This document shows positions 17,740 through 64,000 of a DNA stretch of 64,000 nucleotides, one piece after another (position 1 is the first letter of the stretch; every line of letters begins with the position of its first letter). Source of the stretch: Mesaphorura yosii. Its lineage: Eukaryota > Arthropoda > Collembola > Poduromorpha > Tullbergiidae. The position numbers and the translations under genes are program-made. Location of the stretch: the NCBI GenBank assembly GCA_009869945.1, contig WIXG01000034.1:124001-188000 (forward strand). Direction: 5' to 3'. The notes under the pieces were generated by a model. That model did no database searches. It was not told where the DNA came from and saw only the letters and a program-made list of their open reading frames with translations.

Positions 17740-17836
17740 ATCCTCTGCTACCGTACTGCGGATTTTCCCGCAGGCTCTCGACTAGTGACCCAAAAAACTC
17801 ACGGGCCGATCCGGTACTTACTTAATATGCTATATC

Positions 17837-19198: not shown

Positions 19199-22100
19199 GT
19201 TCGCAGTTGCACAACTGAAACATTTCTTGCTTCTTGCATGAATTAATTAAATTAAGACCACGTCAAGCGTGTGAGACGAATTAAAAGCTAGACTAGACTA
19301 ACAACCTTCCCCATGCATAATTAAGTTGAAAATCTCTCGCCTCGTTGTAACTTAGCACTTGGAAGGATTCTCTTAATTTCCGAGATTCAGACACGGCCAG
19401 TTATGAATAAAATATTCTCCTGTTCGCTGTTCTATTCTAATCTCTTGTGAAATTCGAACCTGCAAAAGATCTAACAAGTGTGACTATGCTCATTGCATAA
19501 ATTTTCTGCAAGAACTGACCTGGTTTAGTTATCACACAAGTTTAGATATTTCCAGCTTATGTGACAGTGCGAGCCGGCTTAAACGTGAGGAATTCAACCG
19601 AAAATCCTTTAAGCTCCCGTCCCGTCTCGACATTGCAGATTGCATTATCCTGAATGCATTTCGTAACGAACCACAACTTGTCTCACGTCGAGGAGAGGGC
19701 TTGAAAACAGGAATGGAAGACGTCTAATTCGTGTTGAAATGAGAAATTCTAAGATTTACTTCCACCTTAATTCCTGTGCAGTGTACAGTCGAGCGCTTTC
19801 CCTTTATCGTAATCTCATTGTAGTCGTAGTCGATGCAGCAATTTAGCCGTTAAAGTTGATTTCATTCGGGCCTCGTTTGATGCATGCAACCGGCTTAACT
19901 TGCAATTGCAATTGCAGGACGAAATTGATTGAAAACGAAAGGATTTACCTTGAATCTTTTTACTCATGAGCGGACATCACACGTCAGCGAGCCTAATTGC
20001 TTAAACCCACCACGTAGCATATTTTGACACAATCAGTTGTCACTCATTCTTGCATCGCGGCGTTGGCATTCATGAAAACGAGCACACAGTATTTTGTCAT
20101 TCATTCATATTTGCGGTGCAATATGAGAAACCTTGAAGACCACAATGCATGAACACTGTTTCCAGTAGTTGGGAGCTGGAAAGCAATTCTGAGCCATGTA
20201 TACATGCATTCAAAGCATTACCGCACGTTATGTCAAGTCTTGACAGAAAATTAAGCCTCTCTTTCTCAGCTCAGTCGCACACCTTGCTTGTGATTGTAAT
20301 ACAATCGTCTACAGCAGCAGATCTTTTTGTGGTACCATCATGTTTAAAAGCGATGCATTCTTTTTGAGGCCGAGACTGCGAGGAGTCCTTTGAAGGTGTG
20401 AATCTGGAAGAAGGATCAAATTCATGAATAATACAACACGAGCATTACCATTACTATCAGTAGTCGTAATTTTTTATGAAAAGGCATGGAATTAACTATA
20501 TTATATTTTTTTTTTGAGATTTGATCCCTTGTAATCCGCAATTCAATGCAATGTTCATGACACAATGGAACTAAATAGTATGGGTGTTTATGCCCATGTT
20601 CTTCCATTCTCATTCCGGTAGATATTATCCAGAAAAAAGAGTACATTGAGCAAAACAAATCATAACTGGACTTTCATTTCTTCACGCGGGGTTTACGCAC
20701 TTTACAAGTTATGCGATGTTCATCCCGACAGTTCAAAAGACGCAAACTCTTATGTCCTAGTTCTCTTAAGCATTCGGCCGGCTTACCTGAACGAACGAAG
20801 TTCTGAATGAATCGTGCTACTCAATTCATTTCAGTTACCACCAATGATAATTCTTTAGTACGCACCGAAAAAGAGATTCTGAAAGATTATCATCGCGTTT
20901 CTGGTTTCTGTCGAATTCATAATTCGGTCTTTCTCATCTGCGCTTTCCCACTAACACGCTATGTCAGGCGGAATCGTAAAAGGTGCCAAGACTTAACCTT
21001 TGACAGTAGTTCAATGTTCTTAAACTTTGAAACCTGAGCTGAAGCTGAACGATGAGGTGCTCCTTTAAAGTAGCCAGCTTGCCACACAGCAGCAGTGGTA
21101 GTACAGCATCGGGAAGTAAAGGGTGCTGACGCTGGTCCTGGCTTTCTGGCTGTCGCAGGGATTATCTCTTGACACATTTAAACTTTGTGAGAAAGGCGAG
21201 GAAAGACCATCGGTTCCATTTCCAACGTTTTGGGTGCCCGGTCTGTGTAAAAACTGAGTCTCACACGCTTCGAATTGAAGTTACACAACAACCATAAATC
21301 GTTTGACCAGGTTCCGATACACTAATTATAATTTATTGCCTTCTGAACTCCTATTTCTGCCCTTACCCTTATATTGAGCGAACTCGCAGACGTCCTGTGC
21401 CTTTTTTGTCGCACGTATCGTATTTAAATTGACAGAAATCGGTTCAGTTCTAACGAGCAAACCAAGCGACGCAGTAAAAGCATCTGATTTAATCGGGGCG
21501 GAGTAAGACGTCTGAGCTTGTGAATTGTGGAGTATTTTCTCATAGAATTTTAAGTTGAGAAAATATGAGGACTTTGGGATTTCACGAGAGTACGCACATC
21601 TGAGACCGAGACTAACCTTCCGCCACCACCGCCACGCTTGGCCATGAAGCCATCGTACGTAGATACAAGATAAGGATATTCCGAGGTCACAGACTTTTTT
21701 ATTATTTTCAAGAGCATGCCATTCGAGCCCATACGACCGAAATTGTTCACTTCAGTTTGGCTTTCGCTGGAAACTGGAAACATGGACTAATAATAATACT
21801 CCATTTGTCCCAAGAGGAAAATATGAAACTAGTAAAAAGGACAAACCGAACATTATCGTAAATACTTCCAGAAATGTCTAGTGCGAGCGGAGGCGAAGGA
21901 AGGAAGGCGGAAGTATGAAATATATCTCGGGAAACGGAAAAATAGAACTCGAAAAGTTGATCACAAAGCTGGAGTCGGAGCTGGGCGCTGATGCACTGGA
22001 TGGCGGATGGCCTCGTTGATCTAGTTTTAGTCTTTGGAACATGTACTCGTTTAATTGCTCTTGCGTTCGCTCGGGTTTCCACAAACGTTTTCAGCCTCAG

Positions 22101-22500
22101 TTTCTTGAGTCTTCTTTCTACTGTATGATGCCACTACCACCAAATGTAATTGCCGCCGCGGCGAAAAATAATGGCTTGGATCAGGCAATGAAAGTAGCAT
22201 TTAACATTTTAATGAGTGCAGCGAGTCCATAACTCGTAAAATCAATTTGCTTTGTTTGAATTTAAGAGCATGTATGCATGAAAGAGATACGGTAATTTCT
22301 TGAGCCCCTTGGCAAGCGGGCAGGCAGGCATCAGACACGGTGACGTTGCCGTTGCTGTACCCTTTGCTAAGGTCAGCATTAATAATACCCACAGCATTAA
22401 TTCCAACGTATCATCATGAGTGAGCATCCCCGCGGATCGACACATGTTTCTTTCGTAAGATTAGTGTCCATAAAAAAGTAAACTATCACCGATTAAAATT

Positions 22501-22524
22501 CGAGCCGAGCCGAGTCGAGCTCGA
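22501..22524. repeat. Short CGAGC/CGAGT pentamer tract
   Basis: Four consecutive CGAG[C/T] pentamers followed by TCGA. A related GAGTC run occurs near 1796-1812. Confidence 0.5.
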
Positions 22525-25500
22525 TTCCAGCTCTTTAGCAATCTTTCATTCCGCATTTGCCTTGGTCGTCCGATCTTGAGAGATCAGAGATTGTGTTCCA
22601 TTCTTATGTAAAATTGCTGCAGTCGAAGTCGAAGAATGGGAAAACACGAGACCAGTTAATAGCCCAAAACGGAATAAATGCCTGTGTGTTTGCTTTCGTT
22701 ACTCCACTACAAGTTTAAATGTTGAAATTGATCCAGGGGGCCTTCGTTATTACAAACCAGTAAAATTCTCGTTATTAGCGCTTAATGGAGTCGCACAAAC
22801 ACAAGTACCACGTTGTTTCGCCTTTTTATTGTTAAGAAAATATATCATAAAATAAATTTTATGCTTTGGGGTACGTGCTTCGAGTCTTGGAGAATAATAA
22901 AAGCAATGCTGACACAATCCGCTTGTGCTTGGGTCGGAATTCTTCGCAGCGTCTTGGAATGCGCCACGCCACGTCTCCGACTTGCTCTTTAGCTGCAGCA
23001 ACATTTTGTCACGTAAAGCACCGCGTAGCAGAATGCAATATTCAGTTTTCAGTGAGTCAAGTACGCGCAACGCGTCTGAAAAAAGTGCTTTGTATTCCCT
23101 CCGTGGAAAAGATGAAGAGTGCGAAAGCTCAAAAGTCAGCGGAGAGTTTTTTTTATCAGAAAATTACTCATGATACAATATGTAACATAATAGCCTCAGA
23201 GCTCTGCCTTTGGAAATCATTTAAAAATTCACATCATGCATTTTATTGTGTGTAGCATGTTTCATTTATGAATAATTGCTGTTATTAATGGCCTACATCA
23301 GGAGAAAATGAAAGGATATTAGCATTGTATTGGGAGTCGAACCAACGCGGGCACGGTTTGGGTTTGAGGCATTCTATTCTTGTGCCCGTAATATATTAAG
23401 GGTCACTCAGCTGGAGGTGTGTTACTTACACCTTAGCCACCTGTAGTGCGGACGAACCCTTCGAAAGGAACTCGAAAGCCTGTCCTGTGAGCATGCAACT
23501 TTCCTGCGTTTGGACTCTGACTCGGCTGGTTCTGACTCTGGCTCTGGTAGGATTAACAATACAGCCACAGCTCACCATGAGGTCACAACAAACAAAATCC
23601 CAATCTTCCTCTCACCCGTCTTGCTCTTGGCTTTTGCGAAAGGTGTAATTTGGGGATTATTAGTTCCGGAGGTTGCGGTCATTTCCACGGCTTACAACTG
23701 TTTACATTTGGGTGCTGCGGGCCTGGAATTTGTTTAATTGTTACTGCAATGTAAACATGTGTCTCGGCATCAAGAGCGCGGTGGGTGATTTACAACCGGC
23801 TGAGCCGTCAGTCGTTCGCTCTGCGTTTGGCACGTCTGACGTCGGCGTAGGTACGTGTTGGAATTAATGCAGGCCAGATGAATTTCACTTTTCTGAATCT
23901 AGACAGATTGATTCTAACCAATAATCTCTGGTTCGAGTCCCCCTTTTATCCCACGCTTTCACTTGTGAATGATTGTTTTGGCAATCGTCGATTCAGTTTC
24001 GATATCCTTCCTTCACGAAGATGAAACGGAACGCCCGGCGGATTAGCCAGACTACCAGACTACTTACTCCTTAAGTCTTGAATGACAACAATTATGCGTA
24101 AGTCTTGCATGAATCGAGCCATGAATCAATGAATGAATGCATCAAGCGTGTGAATTGTTACACAAATAGCCTCTTATTATGCTATCGAGTCCGCATTGTC
24201 TCTTTGCTTGCTTTTAATATTAGGCGTTGGATCTTCGACTCCTTTCTTCTTATCCCATTGTCAGGCTTTTGCTGAATCACTCTCGAGATTCACGTAACAA
24301 TTGCATTTGCGTTGCTTTCTTTTATTTATTCAGGGATTGTGGCATTTGATTAAAGCACAACTTGAATGTAGGACAAGATAGAAACACAATGCAACGCAAA
24401 GAAGCACATTTCAGGCTACTCCTTTTGTTGTCGCATTGTTGGTTTTCTTGTAATCCAGGAGCAACAATGCTTGAAAGATGAACATGCAGCATTTCGTTCC
24501 TTGATTCCTTCGGAAGCGTGACGTCCGGAAGGCGATGAGGAGGCTTGACTTGGATTTCAAATTTAAGAAAATCAATACCGTGTCATTTGTTAAGTAACTA
24601 GAGTTAATGCTGCTGTAAAGCTCAAGGGTCCTACCAATTAAACTCCATTCGAGTGAACAATGAATCCAATTAATTACTCGAATTATCGAGCTGGTTGTCG
24701 AATCAGATTTTGAACTGTCCACTGTCGGCATTGTGGCGTAAACGAATTTGATCGATTTTAGTTAGCAAATAATTAAATCGAAGTGATACGTGCGAGAATA
24801 GAAATAGGATTAGACAGCCATTAAATATAGTTGACAACCACTGTGCTGTATTTTGGTACTGCGTTGGACGCCAATAACTTGATTGAAATACCCTACATTT
24901 ATGCCTGAAGCTGGCTGGTTTATTTGTTTTCCTGCTTCGACGGGTGATATGAATGAATTACTGGAGGACGTTAATCAATACTATTCAAGTGAAACCACAT
25001 AATTACGAGCATTAGCTTGTCAAGTACCACAAACCGATTCGATTGCCCAAATTGCCGATACCACCACTTTGCAAAAATTGTCCCGGCCCGACTACTGACT
25101 GCGTGTGTGAATGTGAATGAACTTCTTACTTGACTTCCTTCGAACTCCTGTAATGGTGTAATGAAATTATGGGTCGCGGGTCGCGACAGATGATATTTCC
25201 AATTTTATTACCCTGCATGTATTACAATTTTAATGGTGTGAATTTTGACTTTTAAGTCACGGAAAATCAGATACGGATGCGTGGAAATATGAATCCCCTC
25301 CTTCGAAACTACTCACCGATTCACTGATTACAATCTGGCTTTCAACTTCAGTCATAAACTCGTATGAGTGTGTTGTAAATGAGGTTTAATTAAAGTGGGT
25401 GTAATTTAATAGAGTTAATGGACTCGAGGAAAGGAGAAAGAACGAGTCACGCTTTACCATCGTATCGCATTTCTTTTGAGTAAATTAAACCTGAGCTTCG

Positions 25501-26926
25501 TGGCCAATGTACACATTAAACATGCTAATCTTTCGCCCATCTTCTCGATGATGTTAAGATTTGAATTCAGACTCAAGAACTCGAGTTTTTTTTTGGAAAT
25601 CTGCACTGGCGCCCTCGAATAGAGATTTGCCGTTTCGAGCTAAGGGTTAGTATTTGTGCTTTCGAGCTGCTATTCGCCCGAGATCATAAATCTGTTATTG
25701 TGAAACGGTCAAACGGTCCTAAATTTATGGCTTTCCATTACTTTCAAGTTTATTTGTTGCCGTAATGCGTTTTTTCTCAATTATTTACACCTTATCTCCC
25801 TTCTTGTTTTATCGCTGATGAATGGTGGCAGGATCTGCTGTGAGCCGAGTCATTTCGGATTTAGAATTCCGTTTCTTCGATTCGAGTCAAGGTTTGTTCA
25901 GATTACCGATTACGCGTACTTTGTACACAATGCAGCCCAACAACCAGCATACCACCCTCTGCGCTGTTTGTAATTTCCGTGGTATTTAAGGCGCTCGAAA
26001 CTCTGGGTGTCAAAACACCAGCGCTAATGTTCCTACTACCGTTCACGGTTCGCGTTCAGCAAATGAGCCCACGCCACGGTCCAAGGGAAAAAGGCAGAGC
26101 CAAACAAAATTTCAGGTGGAAATGGAAACAGAAAGCAATAATCGTAACGATTCGGGCCGTAAGATTATTAAGGTAATAATAATGAATTGCTAAATGCATG
26201 CAACCAGAATATTCAATAAATTTCTGTGTTCTGTGGGGTTTGTGTTTAGATCCAATTTCACTTCAGGAGGGTGATAAATTTTGCACTTATGCACACTGGT
26301 TACTGGCTGCGTGGACTGGTTTTGCAGCTTAATGAAACCTGAGCTTTGAGCTCCAGTTCTTAGTGACCGACTTATTGCAGCACTGCTAATGCGAATGCAC
26401 GCACTCCTTCGCCTTCATTATGACCATGGCACTCGCTCCAGTTACCTTTGATATGAGTGCACCCTCGTTAGACTTGCTTCATTAGTTGCAAGGACTTTGT
26501 ACTCCTTTCTCCATTACATTGCTTGATTCGATCCAATCCAAAATGACCGTGCCATGCCATTTGATCATAAATTTCAGCAGTAAGAAAACCGAACACGTTA
26601 ATTCGAATCCTGGCCCAGGAGAAAGGAAATGTTTATCTAGACTTCTGCACCATTATAATGCCCAAAGTTTCTCGAATGCGTCATATTTCATTCCCAACAT
26701 GTTTATGCATGTGCGAAAAGTGAAACCATTCTTAATAATCGTAAAATTTCTGAAATCTCATTTAAAGTCGTCGAGCACACAAAGTATGCTGCTAAGTACG
26801 GTGCACTCGTTCGCCTGTGGTATCGAGACCACAGAACACTCACAAACTGGAACCACTTCATAATAATAATATTATTAGTTTTATACGCCTTGGTTTTTGT
26901 CAGATTAAGTTTGTGTATATATTTCT

Positions 26927-26964
26927 CTTGGCTTGGCTGCCTGCTTGGCTGGCTGGCCGGCCCA
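26927..26964. repeat. CTTGG/CTGG simple repeat
   Basis: An imperfect run of GGCTTGG, GCTGCCTG and GGCTGG units ending in GGCCGGCCC. Boundaries are approximate. Confidence 0.45.
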
Positions 26965-29900
26965 AGTTGCGAACCACGTCCGAGCTGCGACTGCGACTCT
27001 GCTTTCGCGTACGAAAATAATAAGAGTCAATTTAAAAATTTATGACCACATAAATTAACAACGTGGTCCTGAAGAAGTGAAACGAGTACAAAGTTTTGGA
27101 AAGAAAGCAAAAAACAAAACACCTCTCGCTCTTTTATATGTAAATTTTTCTCATTTAAAACTGTTCACTCTCATTTGTGCAATGATAAAAATCTTAATAC
27201 GCACGCTCTAAAGAGCTCGTTCTTGGAGGCTTGATCCGAGTTTATCTAGTTTAAAAATGAATTATGGGACACGGGCTTGACATAACAATGCTGAGGAGTG
27301 GAAATGGACACGACTTGCTAACAATGCATGGCAAGGGACCAAGAATATCGAATTTCTTGCGTCTTCGTCTTGACACAATGCACCGCGATAGCGATTTTTA
27401 TAACTTATAAGGTAGGTAGTGTAAACACGCTGCAGGTCATCTTATCTTGTAGTCGAGAAGTTGGAACTCATTACGCATTCTGAGAAGAAAGTCGTCAGCA
27501 GAAGAACAGCGGACCCTATAAATATATTAAATTATAAACTTGTTAAGTAATAAATTTTAAAATGGGTTGGCAAACCTTCCAGAGCAAGTAATAAACGAGA
27601 GATCAGGCACTTGTTTTACTTTTACATTCATAATTTCAATTTCGGAATAAATGAGACTCGACTGACTCGATTCCAAATTATAATTGCACGTGAATGCTCG
27701 CGCTGGGCTTCAGCGTTACGTGATTATATGACGCAATATAAGTGTACAGCCGCTTCAGACCATGCTGGAACCCTGACTTGGAAATTTTCGAAGCCCTTAC
27801 AGCTTCGCTTCAAAGAGCAGAACTTACGTCTTGAGGTTATTAGTCAACGAAATTCTATTCAATCGACCGGCGTGTAATAAAATGATTACTTTGTCGTACT
27901 CAGAACACGATTTCTGAAAAGGTACAATGGTAAAGTGTTCATTGAATCCGTTGATTCGGTCCGAGCTCGAGCCTTTGAGCCTGAATCCTTTTGTCTTGTA
28001 TTAAAAATTGAAGTTTATTAATGCAGTCATGAAGTCATAAAATATAACAGAAGCCCAAGTCCAAGAACAAAAGGAAAAAACAAACAAAAAAGTTCGTTTC
28101 GCGTTCTGGAGCCTGGACTTTGCCGCGAAACGCGTAACGCGTATCCGAACCGAGACTCGCTCGCGTCTGGATCTCTCGGGTATCTGTCAGTCACTCAATG
28201 TATGGAATAGAATAACATGTCCCGTACGAGCACGGCGGGTACATTCTGTGAAGTCAGTCAGTCATGGTTAATACGGTTATTATTATAATACGAAATTTTC
28301 GTCCATGCTCGATATAATAAATTATTTTTCACCCTTTTGTAAGTTTTACTTCCCAGAAAGATCTGCCATGAGCCATCGGTCACAATGGAAGAAGACATTC
28401 GAGAAACAAAAGAAGAGCTTCAAATTTTCTTCGGTTAATGCCAAGGCTGTACACTAACCGTAACATGTTAGTACAGATTCCCAAACCCTTCCCTTTCCCT
28501 CGGTCGTTCCTCAGATGGAAGGATGCGAGACGAACTGACGAACCTAACGTGCCCATATGGCATTTTTCATAACTTCATGCCCGTCTTCCGATGTTTGCAT
28601 TGTCTGGTCTGGTGCCTGGAATCTTTTGCCGTGCCGTGCCTTTCCTCATTCCAGCAAAGGAAATTTGGATCGGAGCCGGAGAGATTAAAAAATGAATTAC
28701 TCTCCAAATTTTCGGCTAACAATAACAAAACAGCATGGACGATGCTCGGACGTGTTGTGTGAGTGTGATAAATATGTGTTGTTAAAATTAATGTGCCGTA
28801 CGCGTTTTTTTCTTCCACAAATTTCATAAATAAACAATGTAAAATTAAAAGAGGGACCCTTGCAGCCTTGCCTCATAGGAAATCGTAAAGCATGTAATCA
28901 CAGCTGCACCAATTTGCTGCGGCGTTGGCCATAATTTGACTGAGTCGAGACGCGACTTTGACAAGCAATTGCTCTAATTGTAAGGGCTCGAAAAATTAGT
29001 TGCCGAAGGTTCGGGACACGAATTCCTATGTAATGACGCCATTTCCTTCCCGAAATTGCTCCGGGTCGATCAATAATGAACCCTTTTCTTCAAATTATGT
29101 ATCATCCGACTTCATTTAAGGAAAGCCATGATTGTCATTATTGCACGTCGAAGTTGAGAAGAAAATTGTTATTACTTCTTATCATGTGGCAAAAGATTTA
29201 TTCACTACATTTCGAAGCATTTGAGAAGACGGAGCGACATCATCCTAATAACTTTGCTCCCGTGTTAGAACCCAGAATGGGCAAAACGCAAAAGTAAAAG
29301 TGTCAGTTTGTAAATTCATTCAGCAAAGTTTATGATTCATTAAAACCCCACTTGTAAACAAAGATTCCCATTTTGACACTGAATACGCCATCATTCTGCC
29401 TGCACAGTAGCACTTAAAATATGCAAAATGTGAGATCTTACAAAATTATAGCTACGCATAGCCACATCATCAGCCGTGTTTCACCGCACGTATCGCACTA
29501 GTGCTAGTGCTCGTGCTGGAATGAAGCCACGATTCTAATCGTAGGATGTCATTTAACGCGGCTTTTATGATTATTATTATTACCACACCACCCTTTGCTT
29601 TCCTAGTCTTGCACTGCGCTGGTGCACTTCCACAGGATGGTTTAATCTTTATGATTCAGTCAAGAAGCAGTATGATAGTTTTTATCGCTCATCCCGTAAT
29701 AATGATAGACCAGAAGCTCCAGTCAAATGAAGCCTGGTTTGGTGGTTTGTAACTCATTTCATTTCATGCAATTCATATTTTCAATTTACATATTTTGCTC
29801 TTCTCCTGCATCGCATCGCTATTATTAAATGCCTTAACCATTTCTGCTTTTCACTTTCCACCATTTCATTTCATTCGTGATTGAGAATTCGTGCTCGAAA

Positions 29901-32900: not shown

Positions 32901-33347
32901 AGTACCAATCCACAGAACATTGCCATATTGCATCGGCGCTTGCCGTCGCGCTTAGTGCTGGTTTGCTGACGGTGACTGCTGAAATGACATTATATATCAT
33001 CCAGGCCATTTCTACTTCCTATTGTCTTCATCTCGATGCCCAATTCCACCAAGCAGCAATGCCTTGGAAATCTAGAGAAAGGACGGACGTGAATAATTTT
33101 GCTCTGCTTTCTCCACGTTTGTGTTTGTGAGGACACACGAGATCTCATGCTCAAGTTGACTGCTGTCAGCACTGAATTCTTCATCTACTAGATTTCTTCT
33201 TGTTCTTTTCGTAATAAGCAATGCAATGCGCAAGTCATTCTGACAATTGACACGGGTTCGCGTTCGGTTGTTCCTTTAAATTAAAAACTGGAGACATGCT
33301 ACTGCTGTGAGTGAATTCTCTGGCACCGGTGAGGGGTAAGTGTTAGT

Positions 33348-33371
33348 GACAATAGGACAATAGGACAATAG
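33348..33371. repeat. Three perfect 8-bp tandem units (GACAATAG)
   Basis: The units occupy 33348-33355, 33356-33363 and 33364-33371 without mismatch. They lie just downstream of a donor-like GTAAGTG at 33337. Confidence 0.7.
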
Positions 33372-36300: not shown

Positions 36301-37395
36301 GGCAATTAAGAGCCGAGCCACGACTCATAAATAACGCGCATTTCTCGTTAATAATTCATATAATCACACTGGCTGGCAGCGCGCAGTTAATTCGCAATAT
36401 TTTAAATGGTACGCGACGGAACTAACAGTAAATGTGAAATATGTTGACTCTGATCCCGAATACTGCTAATTTATTAAGCCCTCGTCGCATTCTTTCGCGG
36501 AAAGTTTGTCACTGGTGCCTTGCCTTGCCTTGTCGCCTTTTTCTTTGCTTCGTCGTCTTTGCACATGCAAAGTACAAAGGGTTTGACTTTCAGTCTGTAA
36601 GAAAGAGACTTTTGGCCTCGGCTTATAAAATCCATCAACTCGTACACGTACGCAAGGCAAGATTTGAAAGAGAATGAACTCAACACTTGTTTTATCCCGG
36701 AATTCTTGCTAACTTGAAACTTCGTTTGTGCTGCAGGCTCACACTGCACTTCATTTGCATTCAAATGTGATGCACTTTTAAGGAGAAAATCCTTCGAAGC
36801 TTAACACTTGAGGTTGGCACGGAATAATAATTGAGTTGGTGAGCAAGGCGTCTTTGTGTGGCATAATTCAATTAGTGGTTTGTTGCACTCCCAATCATTA
36901 TTGTGATTGTGGCGAAGCTCCACATGAAGGCCCCGCGCGACGCAGTGCAGGCATGTCAGGAACTAAGCACTAAATGCTTGATTTTGGACTTGTAATGAGC
37001 AAACCGGCGAAACGACTCACGACACTTGCTGACTTACTCCTTGCTGTTGTATTGCAGTGCAAATGAGACAAGTCAATTCCAAGACATAAAATAGATGAGT
37101 CCTCTGGGATCTCATCTTCTTGCCTGGAATCTTGTTAAAAGAAGATTCATTAGCGTAAAGGGGAAAGCTAGTTTGGAATTTCAGCACATTTCAGATTTCA
37201 GTGCGAGTGCGCGTTGTTTACTGCGCTTGCTAGGCTGAACAAACGCCGCAGAATGAAAAGAAAAGAAATATTTTTCATCTTAGCGCTAAAAGTTGCAAAG
37301 ATAGTCAGCGGCAATGTTGTTGAGTCAAGGTTGACGCACTTGGCGACCAGTTACTGCAATTTTTTTTATTAACTTCTTGTCTCACGTCAAAATTT

Positions 37396-37420
37396 TGTCA
37401 TTACCGCTTTTTAGGTAAAC
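37396..37420 (+). other. Candidate recursive splice site (weaker), gene B intron
   Basis: The acceptor CATTACCGCTTTTTAG ends at 37414 and is followed at once by GTAAAC. The acceptor is good, with a longer pyrimidine-rich lead-in further upstream. The donor lacks the G at +5 and the acceptor is TAG rather than CAG. It is on the strand of gene B, 18.2 kb from its first exon. It could be a chance match. Confidence 0.3.
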
Positions 37421-45085: not shown

Positions 45086-45129
45086 AACTAATATGATTTT
45101 TTCTTTTTCTTGTCTCGTTGCAGGTACGT
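45086..45129 (+). other. Recursive splice (ratchet) site, strong candidate, gene B intron
   Basis: A branch-point match AACTAAT (45086-45092) is followed by an almost unbroken pyrimidine tract (from about 45096) ending GTTGCAG at 45123. A donor GTACGT starts at the very next base. This zero-length-exon arrangement is the consensus of ratchet points in long Drosophila introns such as that of Ultrabithorax. After splicing to the upstream exon, the site rebuilds a 5' splice site and the next stretch is removed in turn. It is on the same strand as gene B, 25.9 kb from its first exon. The surroundings show no exon. Confidence 0.6.
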
Positions 45130-45929: not shown

Positions 45930-45950
45930 AATAAAGATTTGACTTGACTT
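45930..45950 (+). mobile_element. Possible LINE-type 3' tail
   Basis: AATAAA (45930-45935) is followed by GATTTGACTTGACTT, a short tandem tail of the kind that ends many non-LTR retrotransposons. No upstream element body was recognised, so this may be a heavily 5'-truncated copy or chance. Confidence 0.2.
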
Positions 45951-48900: not shown

Positions 48901-49424
48901 GCTTTAATTATGAAGAAGTGGAGTCCGAGATGAAGAAAAGGCCGAGCCCGACCGAGAAACTTAATAAATATGGCTCCTTTGGGGGTACGAACTGCACATT
49001 TATTCTGCAAACTTATCTTTTCGATTTCTTATGTGAGCCCGTTTAATTTTTCTTTAAGAAACTTTCCTAGTTAACCTCCTTACCAATTGTTTCAGTATAT
49101 GAGACGTGACCGTATGAATATGAATTTAAAAGCACAAAAGGTAGGCAAGGCCGAGTGAAGCGAGTGCACAAGAAAAGAGGGCCATGAAAAAATTGCCTGC
49201 TTTATTTTAGTACGAGCACGAAACATCATGTTCCTGTTCATACAAAAGTTTTCTTATCCGAAGCAACGCACATGCGACGAGAGACCAGCAGTTCTTCAGA
49301 ACAGATTTTCAATCTATTCTTGGTCTTAGACCCTTTCCTCCTGTTGTTCATTTTCTATTGTTTTAGATTTTCATTCTTCCGTGAAAACTTTTCTCTTTAG
49401 TTTATCCCGCGTACAACACATTTT

Positions 49425-49567
49425 AGCCTTAGTCGGCTAAGTTGCTAAGGCTTACATGTATATTTGAGTTGAAGGAAAGTTTTACAACATTTTAATCTGT
49501 TGAACTCCTTGTCTTTATTCTGCTCATTTCCAAATTCGCACAATAAAGGAAGACTTTATTATTATTA
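49425..49567 (+). mobile_element. Possible 3' end of a retroelement: hairpin, AATAAA, ATT tail
   Basis: A perfect 8-bp hairpin (AGCCTTAG 49425-49432, CTAAGGCT 49445-49452) precedes AATAAA at 49542-49547 and a TTATTATTATTA tail. A stem-loop plus short tandem tail is common at the 3' end of LINEs. No coding remnant was seen. Confidence 0.22.
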
Positions 49568-52500: not shown

Positions 52501-55500
52501 ATCAGAATCTTAAATCAGAAACAAACTTCGCCCAGCGTCCTTTAAATCCAGTAGAAATGTTCGTCAACTATCTTAACCTTTTGTGACAGGGAACGCAACA
52601 AACCAAACCACGGGAATGATAATTGCTTGCATTAACCTATAATCAGGGAAAATTACACACAAAATGCAGTTGCAATAATTGGAGCTGTGACAGTTGTAGG
52701 TGCTCCATATTCGTTTTGACCAAAACTCGAGACTTCTTATTCTCAAAATCACGTCGAATCTGATAGCTGAGCTGATTAGAAGAAGAAAACTTTACTATTA
52801 TGAGCATTGTGGATTCGGAATCTGTTATTTGCATAATATTTAAGTACAAGATTCCTTAAAAGGCTAAGAGTTACAGTAACAGTAAGCAGTCGTGCCGGAT
52901 TATTAAGTAGAGCTTTATAATACGGGTGTCAATGCACCTGTGCTGTAATAAGCTGAAGATTGCATCAGTCTTGTCTTGCCATTTGTACGCTGCCCTTGAA
53001 TGGAGAAGGGAGATTAGACCGAAGACTTGCGCTTATTTATAATCCGGCGTGCACGTACACGAGGAGCTGGAAACCCGAGCAGGAGCAGAACAATAACAGA
53101 ACAGAACAGAGTTGGAGATGAGATTAGAGTAAAATGCAGTGCATTGTTGTCAAAGTCGAATTTATGTGGTGTCCATCATCTTGGCATGTTGTTATTGTAC
53201 GCTTTCTTTCTTCTACATTGTGCATTTTGATCTATTTATAGGGCCCACAATCGGCGAGTACAGCATACAAATGACAGTGGCTTGGGCGTTGTTGCGTAGA
53301 TGCAATTGCACTCGCACTGCCAGAATCTTTCTTTCTCTGCATCTTGCAATAACAATAACAAATGGTAAAAATACGTACACTCGAAACATGTGCGGATGCA
53401 CATGCATTTGACCAACTCAATAAAGCAACGCAGGATTGTGCAACGCAGGCTTTATTTATTTTTGTAATCAGACGGAAGAATCTCGCTTTTTATGCTGCCA
53501 CGTTACAACACTTCAAATGATATTAGTATTTGTATTAGTTTCATGACTTGGCGTTTTTATTACAACTCCAATTATGATGATACTCTCCTCCTGCCTGCGT
53601 GCCTGTAGTGAGTATGAATTTGATTCAGAGTCTGACTCGCCTTTCGCGTAGTCATCCGACTCACTTTCACTAATGAAGTGAAACGATAATTTAATGAAGG
53701 AACTCAGCAGCAGTGCAAGTGCAGTGCAGTGGCGATGATGCAAACTTTTTGTGTAGCAATTTGCTGCTGTCTATCAGCGAGCTGCTGCGCTGCATTTTTT
53801 CTCGGTGCAGTTCTTTTCTGGTGCACATGGCCGGTAGCCATCTGAAAGATGTTGGCTACTTTATGTGAGACAAGACGCAGTTTCATGCAATCGATTTGGG
53901 AGCTGCACGCATTACGGGCCAGTGCTAAGCGCATTTTGTGCATCGATGCATCGTGCAACAAGTGCACTTAATTGCGGAGCATGCTGCTGCTCTGCCGCTT
54001 TTGTTTCTGCTCTTGCTTCGTTTTAAAGAATGTAAATATCTCATTGTAAGGGTGATTAATTGCAACCGCATTTACAATGCCCTATGTGGGCTAGCGTGGT
54101 ACGGGCGAGGCGAAGCCGCAAAACACGAAAACACAACCACGCCAGGGTACAAGCTCGTTTATAGCAGCGCGACCCGGCGAGGGCGATTTAACAAGAAACT
54201 GCGAGATATATCGCATTGCATGGTTGTAAACTCAAACTTCTTAATTTAATTAGTGACTACTTGTTTCAGTCATAAAGTTTGTTTATGATGGTAAAAAATT
54301 AGTATGCAGACAATCATTTAAACCATCTCGCTGCTCCGCTCTGCTCTGAATTCTGAGAATGCCAAGCGGTGATGGTGAGCACATTTGCAGCAGCCCTTGG
54401 CGAAGGACAAGGACAATGGACGGAGCCAGAATTGCCAGGATGTCAATGTCTCACAAAAATTAATATTCATTCCCGCAGCATTTAGCAAACATTATGCATA
54501 GAGCATGAATGGCTCGCAAAGAACAAAATGAGACCACGCTCCGATGATTTGTCACTTTTGTAAAATTAGCCGAAAGTAAAAGAAGTAAGCAAAGCACGGA
54601 CACGGAGCGGAAGAGTAAATAATTGACTATGAAATTTATGGCTTGTAACAAAACATGAAGATGTATCCACGCAGCGAGTGACGGGACGAGATGAGACAGA
54701 AAAGCTAACCAGAAGCTATGCAAGTGCAATGCAGTGCGAGACAAGACGAGTATTTTTTCATTTACATCATCTTTGTCATTTATTTTGTGTTAGTCACTAA
54801 AAACTCATCATCTTTCCTCGGTATCTCACTCACATCACATGTGCTGGCTTGGCTTGGTGGTAAATTGCTTTCCATTCCATGCGTAGGCGCACCGACTCGG
54901 CAGTTGAACCTCTTCTTTGATTTTCTCTCGTACCGCTTGCTGTGAGTCGCATTTCCATCCATCATCATCATCTTCTGGTACAGCACGGCTTCAGCTTCAT
55001 TCAGCTGCTGCTGCTACTTTGCTGCTGGGCATTAATTCTGCTAAGTAAATTCAGAAATGAGTGATACGAAATTGGAAGCTGGAGTCTTGCCGACTCACAG
55101 ACACGACTCGACTGTGTACAAAAATTGAAATTGTTGGGCTGCGTGAGTGTAGTGGACTAATAGTCACTTGCGTACACTTTTTTCGTCATTATTTTCCATT
55201 ATAATTTTACATTGTCTTTCGTAATGTGCTGTGTCGCGGTCGCAGTCAGCCTCAGTAAAAAATCAGGAGAATGCATAATGAATACCTGCCTTGGTCGACC
55301 ATGACTCGTTTCCACGTTTTGATGGATGATGGGTAGCCGGAGCAGAAAAGGAGTCGGAGTGCGGTGATAAAATAATGTACTGTAAGTGGCCAAAAGCATT
55401 TGTACGACAAGAGTAATAACACCATAGTCCTGGACGGTCGTGGTGGTATGGTTGATGGTGATGTTCACAAATTACCATTGTATTCATTAAATGAATCACA

Positions 55501-57282
55501 CGAGCTTAACGAAACGATCTAAATTTAGTACAGCATCGTCCCAGCACGCACTACATAGTTCTTTGTGAATTTGTGATGAAGAGTGAGTCTTGCTTCTTGC
55601 AAATTCTTACACTTTCATTGTCTGAGTCAAAATATAATTATGGAACAAAGAGAATGTCTTGCTTGAAGGTGTTTCAGAGTCTGATCTATGAAATGCTCAT
55701 CTTTTATGGAGTTGTTGAGGAGTAGTGCAATTTGCATCGAGACAGGCACGCTAATAAACTAAGAGAATGCAAATAATCATACATGATGCCAATGTAGTAA
55801 TAATTAATCTTCATAGATTTGGAACACAACGAAACAGCGGCAGGGTGAAGATGAACTTCACTTGCCTTTTGTAAAGAGGCTCACTCACAGTTTAGTGACT
55901 CACATCATCAGAATTATTTGAACGTAAGAATTTAATTGCAGGCTTGCTTTGTCTTGCATAAAAATTAAAGAAGTCGTATTGTCATCGAATTTCTATCGTA
56001 CTGGTGTGACTATTTAATTGGAATGCGTAAAGATTCATGTACATCCCATTAAATTATTTTAATTAGAAGGGAGTCAGTCGTAAACTCGTGCAATGAAGCG
56101 GTCCAGCTTTTGCTCCAGCCTCAGCTATTCAGCTATTAATGGGACGGGATGCGTGAGACTTACTAGCACAATAACTGCTGCCCTTGCATTACAATACGAG
56201 TAACTGGTACTTGTAATAATGGTGGTGCGGACAGGCTCGACGGGCGCACAATGTGCGAGTACTTGCGCTTTAATGGAAAAGAGTTGTTAGAATTTTAATG
56301 ATTAATGCGGCTAAGTACCTCCTGCACGTGCAAGGAAGCCTGAAATATCCCTATTGACATTTTGGTACAAATAAGGACGCACTTCAATGCGCTGAGATTT
56401 GGCCACTTAGGTCTCGACAGGCAGGACTCGAGGCGGTTTTCAAGCTGAGTCAGTCTCCGCGTAGCTTTTGACCCCTTGATTTAAGTTGAGCGTAGAGCAT
56501 TAGAGTGTCAGGGTGGTGTTCAGCTAAAATTCGTTTGTCTGACTGCCTCGTGGCTGTAAAACCATAAAATTACATAAAATTGGGAACTCAGCAGTCAAAA
56601 ATGAGTTGCGACTAAACACTTGACCAAGTTTAATGAATAATTTTGCTTACCGTCCATGGCTTGAATGGCTCCATGATTCATAGCAGACACGAGTTTTGTT
56701 TTTAATTTAATATTGGCTTTCATAAATTACCCGTCGTCGCGTCTAGCCTAGCCTTGGCTGTGTATTTTTTAACTTGTGGTTACTCGTGTCCTACAACCAA
56801 AACTAATGCTGTGCAATTTTGTTACTTTTTTATATGCGTCTGTCTCCAGCGTTTAATGTTTAGTTTATTGAATTAAGACTGGTGGTGACTAGGCTCTCAT
56901 GCTCCTACCACCGAGTACGTGTAGGCCAAGCAGACAACCGTTGTGTTGGCTGGTTTGCATCGTGTTCGCAAGCAACGCAGGCTGGCACTTTTTATGTGTA
57001 AAAGTTAGCTCATTCAAACAAACCAGCCTAATTTAATTGTGTGATTTAGGGTTACATGATTATTCCTTCGCAACTTTCTCTCACGCCATACACAAAGTTA
57101 ATTCTTTTCGCTTTCACTTTAAAACACTACTGCATTGCGGCAAAGCAAAGTTCAGCCAAGTGGCTGTCCTCAAAACCCACGTTAATTTCCTTACAGGAGT
57201 GAAAGGGCTGAGCAGCAGTGTCAGCTAGGAATTTAAGAAATTACGTTTACAGTTTACATGCATGTACACACTTACAATACAT

Positions 57283-57309
57283 ACTTGTACAAAATTATTA
57301 TGTACAAGT
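57283..57309. repeat. Perfect 9-bp hairpin near a ratchet site
   Basis: ACTTGTACA (57283-57291) pairs with TGTACAAGT (57301-57309) around a 9-nt AT loop. It lies about 60 bases upstream of the juxtaposed splice site at 57371/57372. Confidence 0.55.
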
Positions 57310-57333
57310 CTTCTTAGTAACAAACTTACTGTA

Positions 57334-57377
57334 CCTAATCATGCTAATTTCGTTTTTCTTTTGCTTTGCAGGTAAGA
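57334..57377 (+). other. Recursive splice (ratchet) site, strong candidate, gene B intron
   Basis: Two branch-point matches (CCTAAT 57334-57339, GCTAAT 57343-57348) precede the tract CGTTTTTCTTTTGCTTTGCAG, whose last base is 57371. The next base begins the donor GTAAGA. Branch spacing (about 24 nt), acceptor and donor are all near consensus and the exon between them has zero length. It is on the strand of gene B, 12.2 kb beyond the 45123 site. Alternatively it could be the acceptor of a normal exon that happens to start GTAAGA. The frame after it (57366-57620) has no recognisable domain and no strong downstream donor. Confidence 0.6.
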
Positions 57378-60300
57378 CCCGAACATTACTTGCCTAGGAC
57401 TGGGAATGGAAATTGGACCATCGTACGGAATGATTTCTCTTTTGCAATAACATTGGCACTGTTTTCAATCGCTTTCTTCTGCATTTCGAAACCATCACTC
57501 TTGCGTCATCATTATCGGAGGATCGTCGTCATGAATCATGATAGATGCCACGGCAGTTGCCAGCGAAGTAGTGTGCAAACTGTGCCGAGGAAGGGAGATA
57601 TTAGTTTTTGTTTCCACTGAATAGTTTTTAAATCGTATTAGGTTGTCTGACTCTTCAATCTCTTCCCGAAACCCGATAAAATGTGCTCACGACGACCCTC
57701 CCTTTGATGTTTTCCTTCAATCTCACTTGTTCTGTGGATTCGATCATTGATTTGGTGTGCAGCAAAGTGTGCTTTCTGATTTTTGATTAAATACACAATG
57801 AAAGAACGTTTTTTCCGAGTTTTTATCAAATTTGTGTTGTACACTTTACGATAGGATCTTTCCGCCGAGCAGAGTACTCGTTGAGGGTGATGGACCGTCG
57901 CCTTCTCTTTTAATGTTCTGCTCGGACCTTTGCAGATTATAAAAGTAGAGCAGCCCAGTGAGGTTTTGGTGGAAAGTGCTTTTGAGTGATGCGTTGACGA
58001 TGAGCAAGATAGAAAACGGCGCGCTAAAGCCAAAAGTCAAAACGAAAGCCAGGAACGGAGTCATCAAGAAAATGCAATAAGTGAAATCCAATTTAAATCA
58101 AGTGAAAAACTGTGTAAATGAAAACACAATTGATTTTTTGTCGCTTTCTCTGCGTGCTTTGAGAAGCCAAGAGTATCCTCGAGACACAAACCAAATGAAC
58201 CATAACTAGACAAGCACAAACGCACGTACGAGGGCACTACGCAATGCAAGAGACAGGGAACAGGAGCAGCCAGTCGGCCGGTCGTTTGTACGAAGTAAAT
58301 GGCAACGAGACAGAAACATAAATACGAAAGTGTCAATTTAGCACCGCGTTTAGTCGCGCGCCAAACGTCCTGGGAGTTGAAGTCATTTCAGCGGCTACTT
58401 GACGGTCGACGACGACGACTCTTCACATTCATCGGCTTTCGCATTTCACTTTCCCCATGGCACGTCTGCATTCGCACTTGCAACTGCCACCAGTCAGTCT
58501 TTTAATGGAAAAGAATCACGCTCGAAGTCGGAGTTAGAAAATGAAGCCGGAGTAATTAACGTCATTTGTCCAATTAGCGAAGTTCCGGTTGTATTTGTAA
58601 TTACGCTCAATTCATTCTTTCTTTTCCGGATTGACGTTTCTCGGGATAAGGTTACATAGGCAGCAGCAGGAAATGTGGAGCATTTATGTCAGGCAGCGGG
58701 AAACTGCGCGAGTAAAATGAGACAGGCGAAAACATAAGGAAGTGAAAAGGATATCATCGTCGTTCCTGAAACTGTTACGCGCGCAGCGGAGCAGTTAACG
58801 TTATCATTATTATGCAATGCGCGGTGTGGCGGAGGCTTCTTGCAGTCGGGCGGCGGAGATAAACACACGTACTCAAACGCAGATGTTCCCAGCGAAAATA
58901 TGTTTAGCCGTGCAGTGGCAAATGAGGATGAGACTTATGATACCAGAATCCATTCATCTTCCGCACACATGATGGCCTGGCCTGAACTGCTTACTGTGCT
59001 GGCCTACGAATTACTAAAAAATGCATGAAACCTGCCCGGCCTAAAGAGACGGCACTGCACTGCGCGACAAACGGCACTAAAAGCCTGTGACTGCGATCTG
59101 CGAGTCTCTACGGGATAGTAAATAATAATACGCGCGGCAACCCTTCCAAAAGTCAGTCTCCAACTTCTTGTTCTTTGCCTTTTGGTTCTCCTTGCTTCAG
59201 TCCCGTCCCGTCTCAGCCCGGCTATTTCTTTGCTTAATGAGTCAAAAAGACACTTATTTATATTTTTCCTCACAAGAAAGGGTGGAAAATTGCTCCCGTA
59301 CAAGCACGCATTCATGTATGGTACATTAGTCAAATTAAATGTAACGAGCTCGTGGGGAAATGCAATTAGAATCCACAGTCCATGTGAACAATTCTGAAAT
59401 AAATACAACTACAACTGCTTCAAATGACGGGAACAATGAGCGCTGTCTTCTTCAGTACGGCATAGTTACCAGATCCAAATGTCTCCTGCTTCTGTTTCGG
59501 TTTCAAGTCTTGTAAAGTCATTACATCACTGAAGGAATGCACGTCTCAGATTTCAGCGGCAAATTTTTCGGAATTGATGAAGCATTGACAAATTCCTGTG
59601 GCTGATTTCTGCCGAACTCGAACCCGAGCCGAACCCTCTTTGGTCGCAGTCGATGTCGTTAGTGTCCCTTATCTTGTCTCATGCTGAGCTTAATGACAGA
59701 CGCACTTGAGTTCTGCTGGAATCACTTGTCTCATTAGTCAGCTCGACAACGAGGTCCGTTTCCAGAATGCAGCGACCCAGCGTCTTGCCGTCTTGCACCC
59801 CTCATGGTTTATTCAAACGAGGTAAATTTATGAGCACCATCGCGCATCGCGCTCTCTTCATAATACGAAATATCAATGGTTATCATCATCAGCCAAGCAT
59901 TAAAGATTTATGAATTAATATATTTCGAAATAAGTTGTGAAGGCCTTAACATCTTACAATAACAACCTCCGCCGCCAAGCCACCACCGCAAGCATTCGCA
60001 GGCAACGCCAAGACAGCATAGCGTAGCGGGAGAGCATCCCAAAATAAAATGTTAATCCTTAAATAGCTATCATAAGATTCACGGAATGAAAATTTATCCC
60101 AAACAGGGAAGAGGGTAACTGGCAAACATTTTATTATTTGTTCTCCCATTGTAAAAGATATCTTGCGTCGCGTTGCGCCGAGGCAGCCAGCTTCAAGAAA
60201 ATTTAAGGAAAGGAAAAGATTTGCAATTCAAATTTCATTTTCCGTGCTCCAACTTCGCGTTCCTCCACCGCCTGCAATTCAGCGGTCCTCCAGCACGGCA

Positions 60301-63300
60301 CAGCACAGCGAGTGAATGAAGGGGGAATATTTTAAAGCGTGCATTATTGCGCGCTGCTCCGCGTGAAAGAGTCAAACTTTACAAAATTTTATAAGCTTCG
60401 AAATGCCTCAAAACTTTACCTTATAGTAAACATTGGCTGGCAAGTTTTTGATCTTTTCAAGTTTGAGTCGCAACTTGCAATATTCTCGCAGCATTTTTCA
60501 AACTGCTGTGCTTATTGCCGTGCCTCCTTCTCATTTCACCCTTGCGCCTTGCCTAAGTCACGGCGAAGGTGAGCCTCGGTTCTTTCTTCGTTCGTGCAAC
60601 TTTTGCTCTTTGTCATTTTAATGCGTTTACTGCATTCACCTTTCCATGCTGTGAAACGACCCAGTCACGAGTAATGCGGCGTCCATGTGCTCGTGTGTGT
60701 GTGGACAGGAACAGCGAAGTGATGACGGAGAAAGTTGCAAAGTTTGCAATATAATAAAAATAATGTTACCAAGTCACTGTCACCGTTCTTATTACTCGAG
60801 ACGTTCGCAGAGCAGATAGTGGGACGATGAAAGAGGATTCTTGAACTAACTGATGAGGCCATGAATTTTTCATTTGTTCTTCATCATGTCATCCAGGATC
60901 AGGGCACAAAGCACGGGAAGCTTACATGCAGTGCTGAGCCATTCAACGCAATGCTTTCGTTTCGTAACTGATGATAGGCTTGCAAAATGAGTAATATATG
61001 GTGAAAGAGGCTTACGAAGATGGAATTATTGTTATTATTTGCATATCGGTACAATGGCTGGGCGCAGAGCAAAGAAAAGAAAAGCCTTTCATGAATGGTT
61101 AAGAAAACTTTGCAATTTATTCTTGAGAAGGATTTACTTCTCCCAAATTTCCTTTATTTGGGCAATTTATTTTTAGTTCCTGCTCTTGTTGATTTCTTAT
61201 GAGATTTTTAAAATGACCTCTTACAGTTGCGTTTCAAATACCAGAACAGCAGTGAAATTCTTCGCAAAATGTGAAAAATTTAATAAGTTCAAGCATCACG
61301 GCCATTCGAGTGCTCTATTACAATTGGCAAGTCATATCATTAGTTACATAAGCACGAGATGATTCGGCACGCTCTTTGAATCGATTAACGTGGATTATTG
61401 GAACTACGTGCGTCAAAACATTTATACTATTTATTTTTCGAGTGTCTTGGGCAAATCAACAGGAGGCCCACTCCAAAATGTTGCCTTATATGTACACAAG
61501 GCATTGGGACTCGTCGAGCCAGACTCAGGCTAGACTTCGCCCACAATAAATTAACAGAGCACGATCTCCACTCAGAGCGATGGTTGTTGTTGTAATTAAT
61601 TTAGAGTTCTGACAGATTCCCACGGACTCGATCCTCACTCATTTTCTTATATTAATATTTATTTTCTGATGACCACAAGATTCATACTCGGAAATCCAAA
61701 TAAGAACTTTAACTCAGACGAAGAGAGTATGACTTTAAATAGAAGCCAAGTCAGGCCTGGAGTCTTTTATTTTCATCCTCGCCTGGACGGATTTTATTTC
61801 CAGCAACTGTCAATAGTGGAATACGATGCGGAATATGGTTTTCAGTTCCAATTTAGATGTAAATTGTATTTGCTTAGATGAGTAATATAACAGCGCGCAT
61901 TAAATCAAGTTTGATTAAGATCATCATCTGGGCTGCAATGTAAGCGTTCGGAAGCTGTGTTATGATATCCAGTTTAAAGCCCCTCTCATCTTCTTCTAAG
62001 CCGAGATTCATCTTCAGCTCGTCTCGTCGTCGTGCGTTCGTGTACTTGCCATTGTTTACACAGAGCCTTCATGTTCATGTTCGATTTTATGCATTTGTTT
62101 CTTGACATCGCTCAAGTGTGCTATTTATATTGCATTAATATCTTGAATTTATGGCAGCCGTTCACATACGCACACGCAGCTGAGTACAATTCGATGCGCT
62201 GTGATGCGGTTACGAGAACGAGGCAGAGCAGAGAGTTTTACTGTTTGCCTTAATAATTGTAAATCTCTTGTAAGCACTTGGAGATTAGATCTTCACGTTC
62301 CATACTATCTTCTCATTCAGTGCAAAGCGCAAGGGCACTTCCATCATATCGCATGCATCTCAGCCCAGGATCCTCAAAAGATAATCAAATAAATCGAAAA
62401 GTGGATCGTTAACATATCATCCATCCGTGCTAACAAATAACGGTAGATACCATACATCAATCTTGCCATCAGAGTACGGTGCATCGCATACTTGCTCGTC
62501 CAGAATGTATTAATCAATCTGGCTTGACAAATATTACATCACTCGCTGCTGCTGCTACTGTTACTGAAGCTACTGGCACTGGCTTGGTACACAACGTCTG
62601 GAAATGAGCGATCTTAATTTATACACACAACACGCAGATCTTGGATCGCTGATGTTTGGCTTCACCCTTTCAAATATATTGTAATCATTTTCATTCTGCA
62701 GATGCGTCTAGCCGCTTTATCTCGTTTGGATTCCACTTCTCACATCTCATTTCTCAGATGAAGAATGTTAACGATCAACGCAATGCTGCGCTTCTCAATG
62801 AAGGGCTGCATTGCATAGTTTCGGTCACTGCATAATAACACCCTTGCATCACCGCTAATGATACATCTTGGTTTCTTTTTTCGTACTCGAACGCGCAGGG
62901 CGCAATATTGAGGCAGGCGGAAGGTCGAACATCGAAGAACACAGCGCTTTTACGCATGTATCCGTACATACATCTCCTTTCCCCACAGCACAATGCATTG
63001 TAATAAGATAAAAGTGACAGTTTGAGACAAATTAGAATGTTTTTTCGGGAATTTATGTGGTATGTAAACGCAAGGCGTACAAAGAGTTATTGGAATTGAG
63101 AGACGAACGGCTACGCCAAGGCAGGACGAGGGGAGAAAATGAAAAATTCAATCTTGCTCCATGCTGAGGCTCAAAAGATAGTACGAGTAACGAGTGCGAG
63201 TACGTGAATACGCGTTCATTCATAACTTAACTCTTCCAGGGCGCAACGCATGCAATGGTGTGTTGGTAATGGGATAATAGCAAACGTTCTTTTTTCAATA

Positions 63301-64000
63301 AAGAGCAAAAACCAATTGGAAAGAATATAATATCTTCAGCCCAAGTTAAGACCATGTGTAGAGTATTTATATTTTCTCATCTTTAAAGCAGACAGACTTT
63401 AAATGGAATGGGCCATGCCTGTCCCGCAGTGAGGCAGACAGGAGAAGGGTAGAGCCATAATGATGATCGTCGCAAGCAGTGAGTCATATTGAACGAATCC
63501 CAACCCATCAGAGGACAATAATTACCCTTCCAAAGTAATAAATAACCAAACGACTGGAAAATGTAATATAATCATAATAATTCCAAAGATAGCTTTCATC
63601 TCGATACAACGCTGAAGCTAAAAAGCAAAGAGTGAAATTGAAATCGTTTTCGTTTCCAGCAATTTTCTTCCTCGTTCCCCGAAATGAGCTTTAAAACGAA
63701 TGTTATGAGGTGTAAAATAAACGTTCTCGATCTAGTTTGCTTACGGTACGGATTCCAGCTTCAATTTGATGAGACCTAAAGCTGGAGCCTAGAACGGTTA
63801 TCACCTCACGTTGAGTGTCAGAGTGTATGCAAGCACGCATGATATGGAACCATTAACTTCAACGCGTGACGATGACATTAAGTGAACTTTTCGTCGTCTC
63901 CCAAGCTAAAGTTTGACTCTTCACCCAACTCTTCATCTTCATTCATTAAGAATAAACTGCTTAAGGTTACATACTGACGCTTGTTAGCTTAGCTTGTTAA
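57372..64000 (+). other. Presumed giant intron of gene B, fourth segment (partial)
   Basis: No convincing exon was found before the right edge. A donor-like CGAAG|GTGAGCC at 60568/60569 has an acceptor-like TCTCGCAG 77 bases upstream. That interval is closed in the phase needed to follow gene B exon 1, so I did not call it an exon. A minus-strand frame (57638-58033) ends with a dibasic/amidation-like motif and is noted as a finding only. Confidence 0.4.

Follow-up and report, generated by a model that had tools for sequence, protein, structure and literature searches.

Two genes, here called A and B, begin head to head in the window, the whole stretch of 64,000 nucleotides analysed here (C34:124001-188000; contig C34 measures 360,078 bp and belongs to an assembly of 93.0 Mb in 1127 contigs). 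Their predicted products suggest that both are klingon-like immunoglobulin-superfamily genes of the cell-adhesion type, and the first intron of each runs out of the window, that of gene A on the minus strand and that of gene B on the plus strand. The sequence taken in comprises C34 downstream of the window and upstream to C34:52001, plus small pieces of gene A beyond that point. The arthropod origin put forward in the original prediction is borne out by 66 matches to Chitin_bind_4. PBP_GOBP gave four matches, all weak, and 7tm_6 gave none, in a search in which the positive control was also silent; no match was found in Rfam at the gathering score or in a tRNA search.

Structure and relationship of genes A and B

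The exons, introns and promoter elements, as predicted from DNA, are as follows, with a slash marking a splice boundary and window-scale positions continuing the numbering of the window beyond its end.

Window 18720..18754, plus strand: gene B core promoter (predicted), a TCAGTT initiator, its A at 18722, plus a DPE-like AGTTGT at +28..+33
Window 18658 (the A), plus strand: second initiator and DPE pair of gene B
Window 19102..19198, plus strand: coding part of gene B exon 1, encoding the hydrophobic, signal-type peptide MASKGICQLHLSSRNSLILLFVSFWIVWNFKT and with the phase-1 end AAAACAG/GTTCGC
C34:143199-203577 (window-scale 19199-79577), plus strand: gene B intron 1, 60,379 bp, of which 19199..64000 lies in the window
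Window 11659-11581, minus strand: gene A exon 1, coding part, MAFKILQRLWILNALFAVSVVGSFKT, ending FKT, phase 1, AAAACAG/GTAAAC
C34:135580 down to 58457, minus strand: gene A intron 1, 77,124 bp, of which 1..11580 lies in the window
From C34:58456, minus strand: gene A exon 2
C34:56325-56125, minus strand: gene A exon 3
About C34:51270-41241, minus strand: gene A exons 4-9, placed from a homology search and small pieces of C34:1-52000 only

The downstream exons of gene B were located with a klingon-like probe, which picked out a chain of plus-strand exons from window-scale 79628 to 85923 in the first 97 kb searched. Gene finding with self-trained hexamers also sufficed to locate the Ig exons. 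Exon 2 starts at C34:203578, after the acceptor TTTTTCTGTTTTTCAG/TC at window-scale 79577, and the 10 exons of the gene give a single open reading frame of 536 amino acids. klingon is made up of a signal peptide, three Ig domains, an FN3 region and a hydrophobic C-terminus. In the gene B product, three stretches each matched Ig_3, I-set, ig and Ig_2 above the cut-off, and both ends read as hydrophobic in the sequence. For fn3 the match is weak: its E of 0.0099 falls short of the curated cut-off, and it is absent at E 0.001. The match to the klingon-like probe covers the Ig and FN3 region. Among solved chains, the nearest are MDGA1 and the Dpr-interacting proteins (DIPs).

Exon 1 of gene B ends in phase 1, the phase that exon 2 requires. 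It is one of 20 candidates in 79.5 kb that run from an ATG to a donor, encode a hydrophobic stretch and end in phase 1, and it ranks 4th among them. We prefer it because of the paired promoter motif in front of it and because its end is identical to that of gene A exon 1, both exons closing with TTCAAAACAG/GT. The initiator motif is TCAKTY and the DPE motif RGWYVT; only 2 of the 193 TCAKTY sites on the plus strand of the first 80 kb (window-scale) have RGWYVT at +28, and both of these pairs are found upstream of the exon-1 ATG, no more than 450 bp away. The donor of this exon is very weak (0.7 bits, 9-mer), and no donor of at least 4 bits was found within 18650-20600. In gene A the exon-1 donor is also weak (3.7 bits, 9-mer), and exons 1 and 2 join in phase 1 as they do in gene B. 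No initiator and DPE pair was found near the gene A ATG in a search of the minus strand of C34:100000-143100; the sole pair there is at window 16095, 4.4 kb from that ATG.

The two genes are clearly related. Exons 3-8 have equal lengths in A and B, and the proteins are identical at 344 of 457 positions (75%). Fourfold-degenerate sites are identical at 66 of 159 (42%), against a saturation expectation of 25%, which indicates that the duplication is old. The next-best match on another contig, C442, is much weaker (E 7.7e-18, 36% identity, with 81 of 116 candidates scored), and A and B thus look like mutual closest copies.

Juxtaposed splice sites in the two first introns

AG/GT sites were scored on both strands with a single generic splice-site matrix of 20 acceptor and 6 donor positions. 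The first scan covered 1058 sites in 236 kb and the extended scan 1301 sites in 308 kb. A species-smoothed matrix, from a training that gave 27 introns, was used solely to cross-check the generic one. Six candidate ratchet sites stand out.

B1: window 45104..45129, boundary 45123/45124 (C34:169123), plus strand, TTTTTCTTGTCTCGTTGCAG/GTACGT, 17.5 bits
B2: window 57352..57377, boundary 57371/57372 (C34:181371), plus strand, GTTTTTCTTTTGCTTTGCAG/GTAAGA, 19.1 bits
B3: C34:198268/198269 (window-scale 74268), outside the window, plus strand, TTTTATTGCAG/GTAAGA, 17.3 bits
A1: C34:106981, outside the window, minus strand, 17.5 bits
A2: C34:88794, outside the window, minus strand, 20.9 bits
A3: C34:71624, outside the window, minus strand, 18.6 bits

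In the first scan, ranks 1, 2 and 3 fell to 57371, 45123 and 74268, with 14.9 bits at rank 4, and the species-smoothed matrix left the same three on top. In the extended scan, ranks 1-6 were three sense-strand sites in each intron, and a gap of 2.4 bits separates the sixth (17.3 bits) from the seventh (14.9 bits). At a threshold of 15 bits, each intron has three sites on its sense strand and none on its antisense strand, and neither strand of the remaining 163 kb has any. The sense-strand density is therefore 6 in 137.5 kb, or 4.4 per 100 kb, and the antisense density is 0.

A ratchet ladder in the giant intron of gene B had been proposed in the original prediction, and it gains support from these ranks, from the strand bias, from the spacing control described below, from the third site and from the paralogue. 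Its details fared unevenly. AG/GT is present at all three of the zero-exon sites that it named, and two of them, 45123/45124 and 57371/57372, are exceptional; the other, 37414/37415, is ordinary. The spacings of 18.2, 7.7 and 12.2 kb give way to segments of 25.9, 12.2, 16.9 and 5.3 kb, the intron continuing past the window end to C34:203577, beyond the stretch on which the prediction was made. The single moderate site reported on the opposite strand, 20786/20787, does outscore every other minus-strand site of the intron (14.1 bits, rank 7). The corresponding segments of gene A intron 1 are 28.6, 18.2, 17.2 and 13.2 kb.

The site at 37414/37415 (37395..37420, plus strand, CGCTTTTTAG/GTAAAC) was rejected as a ratchet site. 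It scores 10.9 bits and ranks 23, or 11 with the species-smoothed matrix. Among 200 dinucleotide shuffles of the intron, a mean of 5.4 sites reached at least 10 bits and 3.0 at least 11 bits, and a site of this score is thus to be expected. Near its mapped place in gene A, the best site within 2 kb scores 8.0.

Chance occurrence of AG/GT sites in long sequence fits 37414, but as an account of the six sites it is extremely improbable. In the same 200 shuffles of the gene B intron, the third-best site averaged 11.3 bits and never exceeded 14.6. A fourth-order Markov simulation of 30 Mb, trained on the sequence of the first scan (236 kb), gave 10 sites of at least 17.3 bits, or 0.020 per 60.4 kb. 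The matrix was already fixed before the four sites outside the window (B3, A1, A2 and A3) were scored, and at the Markov rate about 0.033 sites would be expected in their 99 kb. A3 was first met as one of the 18 matches to a strict pattern described below, whereas A1 and A2 came from the scan alone. Against chance also stand the fact that the top six ranks are all sense-strand sites, three in each of two introns, and the corresponding places that the sites occupy in both.

The spacing of the splice signals is equally telling. At each of the six sites, an acceptor of 9.9-12.6 bits and a donor of 6.3-8.2 bits abut with zero spacing. With a strong acceptor defined as at least 9.5 bits and a strong donor as at least 6 bits, 38 acceptors and 343 donors qualify on the sense strand of the two introns. 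At spacing 0 there are 6 pairs on the sense strand and 0 on the antisense strand; spacings 1-500 give 46 pairs altogether on the sense strand, with a maximum of 1 at any spacing, and 30 pairs on the antisense strand. With 6 pairs at spacing 0 and at most 1 at any other, the juxtaposition itself is the unusual thing. Branchpoint-like motifs lie upstream of the gene B sites (CTAAT at -36 of B1 and at -37 and -28 of B2, TTAAT at -27 of B3), and B1 has no further AG in the 60 nucleotides upstream.

The sites might alternatively be the ends of unannotated cassette exons or alternative first exons, the acceptor or the donor alone being used. CAG/GT is a normal donor context, and a donor of 4.6 bits follows B1 at +106, but this is the only one of the six sites with a donor of at least 2.5 bits at +15..+250 (weaker donors would escape such a search). 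That both signals are strong at all six sites, that five of the six have no such downstream donor and that the flanks of the sites, unlike coding exons, are unconserved between the paralogues make this alternative unlikely, and dual use of each site as acceptor and then donor is the reading that we prefer.

Strict motifs show no genome-wide excess, in keeping with chance. Y8NCAGGTAAG occurs 18 times in the genome, compared with 18 for the reversed-pattern control and 27 for the purine control R8NCAGGTAAG. When Y10NCAG and GTAAG are separated by a variable spacing k, k=0 gives 8 matches versus about 3.3 per other spacing, a surplus that could be explained by the normal CAG/GTAAG donor context; in all there are 57 matches, versus 114 in the reversed-pattern control. 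A stricter pattern gave 1 match genome-wide, with 0 at k=0, versus 3 in its control. Because the pattern YNNYNTTSCAGGTAMG was derived from the six sites, its 6 matches on C34 are circular and only its rarity elsewhere is informative: 88 of its 94 matches lie off C34, with at most 3 on any other contig, and the reversed-pattern control gave 30. Pairs of non-C34 matches no more than 100 kb apart, assessed by eye, comprised 5 on the same strand and 3 on opposite strands, with no clear bias. In total 34 motif matches were scored, namely the 18 to Y8NCAGGTAAG (A3 among them) and 16 of the 94 to YNNYNTTSCAGGTAMG, the latter selected because they formed same-strand pairs or had pyrimidine-rich tracts. 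The five same-strand pairs (C8, C95, C26, C21 and C4) comprise 10 sites, which score 12.5-17.0 bits. By score only, sites of like strength occur elsewhere, at C172:56184-56200 (21.1), C15:229991-230006 (20.9), C53:255136-255152 (20.1) and C205:111695-111710 (20.1).

Positions of the sites in the paralogous introns

The two introns retain traces of colinearity. At E<=1, a blastn comparison of the two introns gave 11 same-orientation and 4 inverted matches, of which a colinear same-orientation chain comprises 9 blocks; in 1000 permutations the mean was 4.6 and the maximum 8. A chain of 12 is obtained at E<=10, with no excess over the permuted maximum of 13, which places the signal in the stronger matches only. 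The best non-coding match between A and B scores 49.1 bits, compared with 34.6 and 37.4 in two controls.

Measured from exon 1, the gene A sites lie at offsets of 28600, 46787 and 63957. Interpolation between nine anchors predicts gene B offsets of 26654, 37884 and 54214, and the observed offsets are 25925, 38173 and 55070. The errors of -729, +289 and +856 bp correspond to P = 2.2e-4 for three random positions; proportional scaling without anchors gives P = 0.037. The test leans heavily on two of the nine anchors: dropping one of them raises an error to 2.7 kb, and dropping the other raises one to 4.9 kb.

The sequence around the sites has not been retained in the same way. Local alignments of the flanks score 10-13 for the three matching pairs, against a null median of 13.5, and the highest score among the nine cross pairs, 18.5, equals the 95% point of the null. 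With flanks that cannot be aligned and fourfold identity of 42%, the motifs appear to outlive their surroundings. Conservation of the sites above that of the surrounding intron is thus seen between two paralogues of one species. Taken together, these observations suggest that the six sites descend from an ancestral gene and have been retained by selection.

Probable recursive splicing and comparison with known systems

Very probably, recursive splicing removes the first introns of genes A and B in four steps, through three ratchet points each, an arrangement that would predate the duplication. Stepwise removal of both introns with use of the six sites is the most likely reading of the DNA. Exon 1 would be spliced to the first ratchet site, whose GT would restore a donor, and the cycle would be repeated at the second and third sites, after which exon 2 would be joined. 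Ratchet sites of zero length would leave the reading frame unaltered, with exons 1 and 2 meeting in phase 1. Both exon-1 donors (3.7 bits in A and 0.7 bits in B) are weaker than the ratchet donors (6.0-7.9 bits), and the first step may thus depend on the strong acceptor of site 1. Only tentatively do we go further and propose that the ancestral three-step ladder has been kept in both copies as true zero-length exons that lack a cryptic downstream exon. Alternatively, the sites could be real and conserved and yet act as splicing enhancers or decoys, the intron being removed in one step. The DNA evidence presented here does not separate binding of the splicing machinery from joining, but Drosophila sites of this kind show sawtooth profiles and recursive junctions in the parts of the source used here (PMC6110457), and we regard removal in one step as very unlikely.

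The mechanism is a known one, and the novel part is the presence of matching ladders in ancient paralogues. Among the titles and starts of abstracts listed from open-licence papers, we found no report of matching ratchet ladders in paralogues. A search of the open-licence literature likewise yielded no paper that ties recursive splicing to klingon, and a search of it for recursive splicing, gene duplication and ratchet returned only unrelated work. A 2026 review, in the portion consulted, lists documented recursive splicing in Drosophila, mice and humans (PMC13149111). If the six sites are used, the two genes would constitute a natural duplicate experiment, in which neutral sites have gone much of the way to saturation and three ratchet points have kept their relative places. 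Such a result would point to selection on the stepwise route itself and would mean that a ladder can reach a great age.

Computed ratchet points (RP-sites) provide one comparison. In the available part of an invertebrate survey, the consensus is given as (y)n ncag/gtaagt, and RP-sites are enriched in large introns of fly, mosquito, beetle, bee and sea urchin but not of vertebrates (PMC2773006). For introns longer than 50 kb, the numbers of RP-sites per 100 kb on the intron strand and the complementary strand are given there as 2.196 and 0.101 in fruit fly, 1.029 and 0.000 in mosquito, 0.807 and 0.101 in beetle, 0.484 and 0.122 in bee and 0.540 and 0.066 in sea urchin (PMC2773006). The sense-strand enrichment in genes A and B is of the same kind, although the survey concerns genomes and the density reported here concerns one gene pair under a different score threshold. 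In mammalian recursive-splicing exons, too, a recognised element has a donor restored at its 5' end. These exons are described, in the portion of the source consulted, as mostly expressed exons (PMC8605326), whereas the sites in A and B have no adjoining conserved exon.

The closest likeness is to the zero-nucleotide ratchet points of Drosophila, those of Ubx, kuz, osp, fz and other genes. According to the sections used here, recursive sites in Drosophila consist of juxtaposed AG/GT in very long introns, are enriched in first introns and are conserved above control AGGT motifs (PMC6110457). Genes A and B share the zero-spaced strong 3' and 5' splice sites, the AG/GT centre and the very long first intron, and all six sites lie on the sense strand of introns longer than 40 kb, as predicted from DNA. 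Recursive segments in Drosophila typically measure about 9-15 kb in the same sections (PMC6110457), whereas those of A and B range from 5.3 to 28.6 kb. The Drosophila model, as outlined in the accessible text, includes a cryptic exon with a downstream donor (PMC8605326), and such a donor is present at one of the six sites here. Positional agreement between ancient paralogues does not figure in the passages of the Drosophila paper used here and is present in A and B. If the six sites are used, this arthropod, with its compact genome, could serve for asking whether the cryptic-exon step of Drosophila is general.

The region between genes A and B

On the minus strand at window 20786, an AG|GT site scores 14.1 bits with the splice-site matrix, ranking 7 among 1058 such sites on both strands of 236 kb of C34. 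It lies upstream of exon 1 of gene A, the minus-strand paralogue of klingon-like gene B; one possibility is that it serves gene A as the splice donor of an untranslated 5' exon. The two genes stand head to head with start codons about 7.4 kb apart (window 11659-19102), and this interval may therefore hold a two-way regulatory region common to both.

Blocks common to the two first introns

Short non-coding blocks occur in the same order in intron 1 of both genes, starting on the gene B side at:
window 26541, 29118, 31888, 38899, 46204, 60216 and 60598

With the threshold relaxed to E<=10, their chain ceases to exceed chance. The blocks are candidate old regulatory elements, retained since duplication.

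Sites and genes elsewhere

Further strong AG|GT sites (19-21 bits) on other contigs of the assembly are, from their sequence, possible additional ratchet points for recursive splicing:
C172:56184-56200
C15:229991-230006
C53:255136-255152
C205:111695-111710
C318:64952-64968
C69:22846-22861
C71:85840-85855

On contig C314, cuticle-protein matches to Chitin_bind_4 form a large cluster, and some of them contain in-frame stops. On the contig of gene B itself, an immunoglobulin-type match (C34:24821-25180, plus strand) is 36% identical to gene B residues 199-321. Gene density along this contig is contrasting, with gene-poor giant introns followed, beyond gene B, by dense compact genes (window-scale 92-97 kb, C34:216000-221000), which presumably include a tryptophanyl-tRNA-synthetase-like and a YIF1-like protein.
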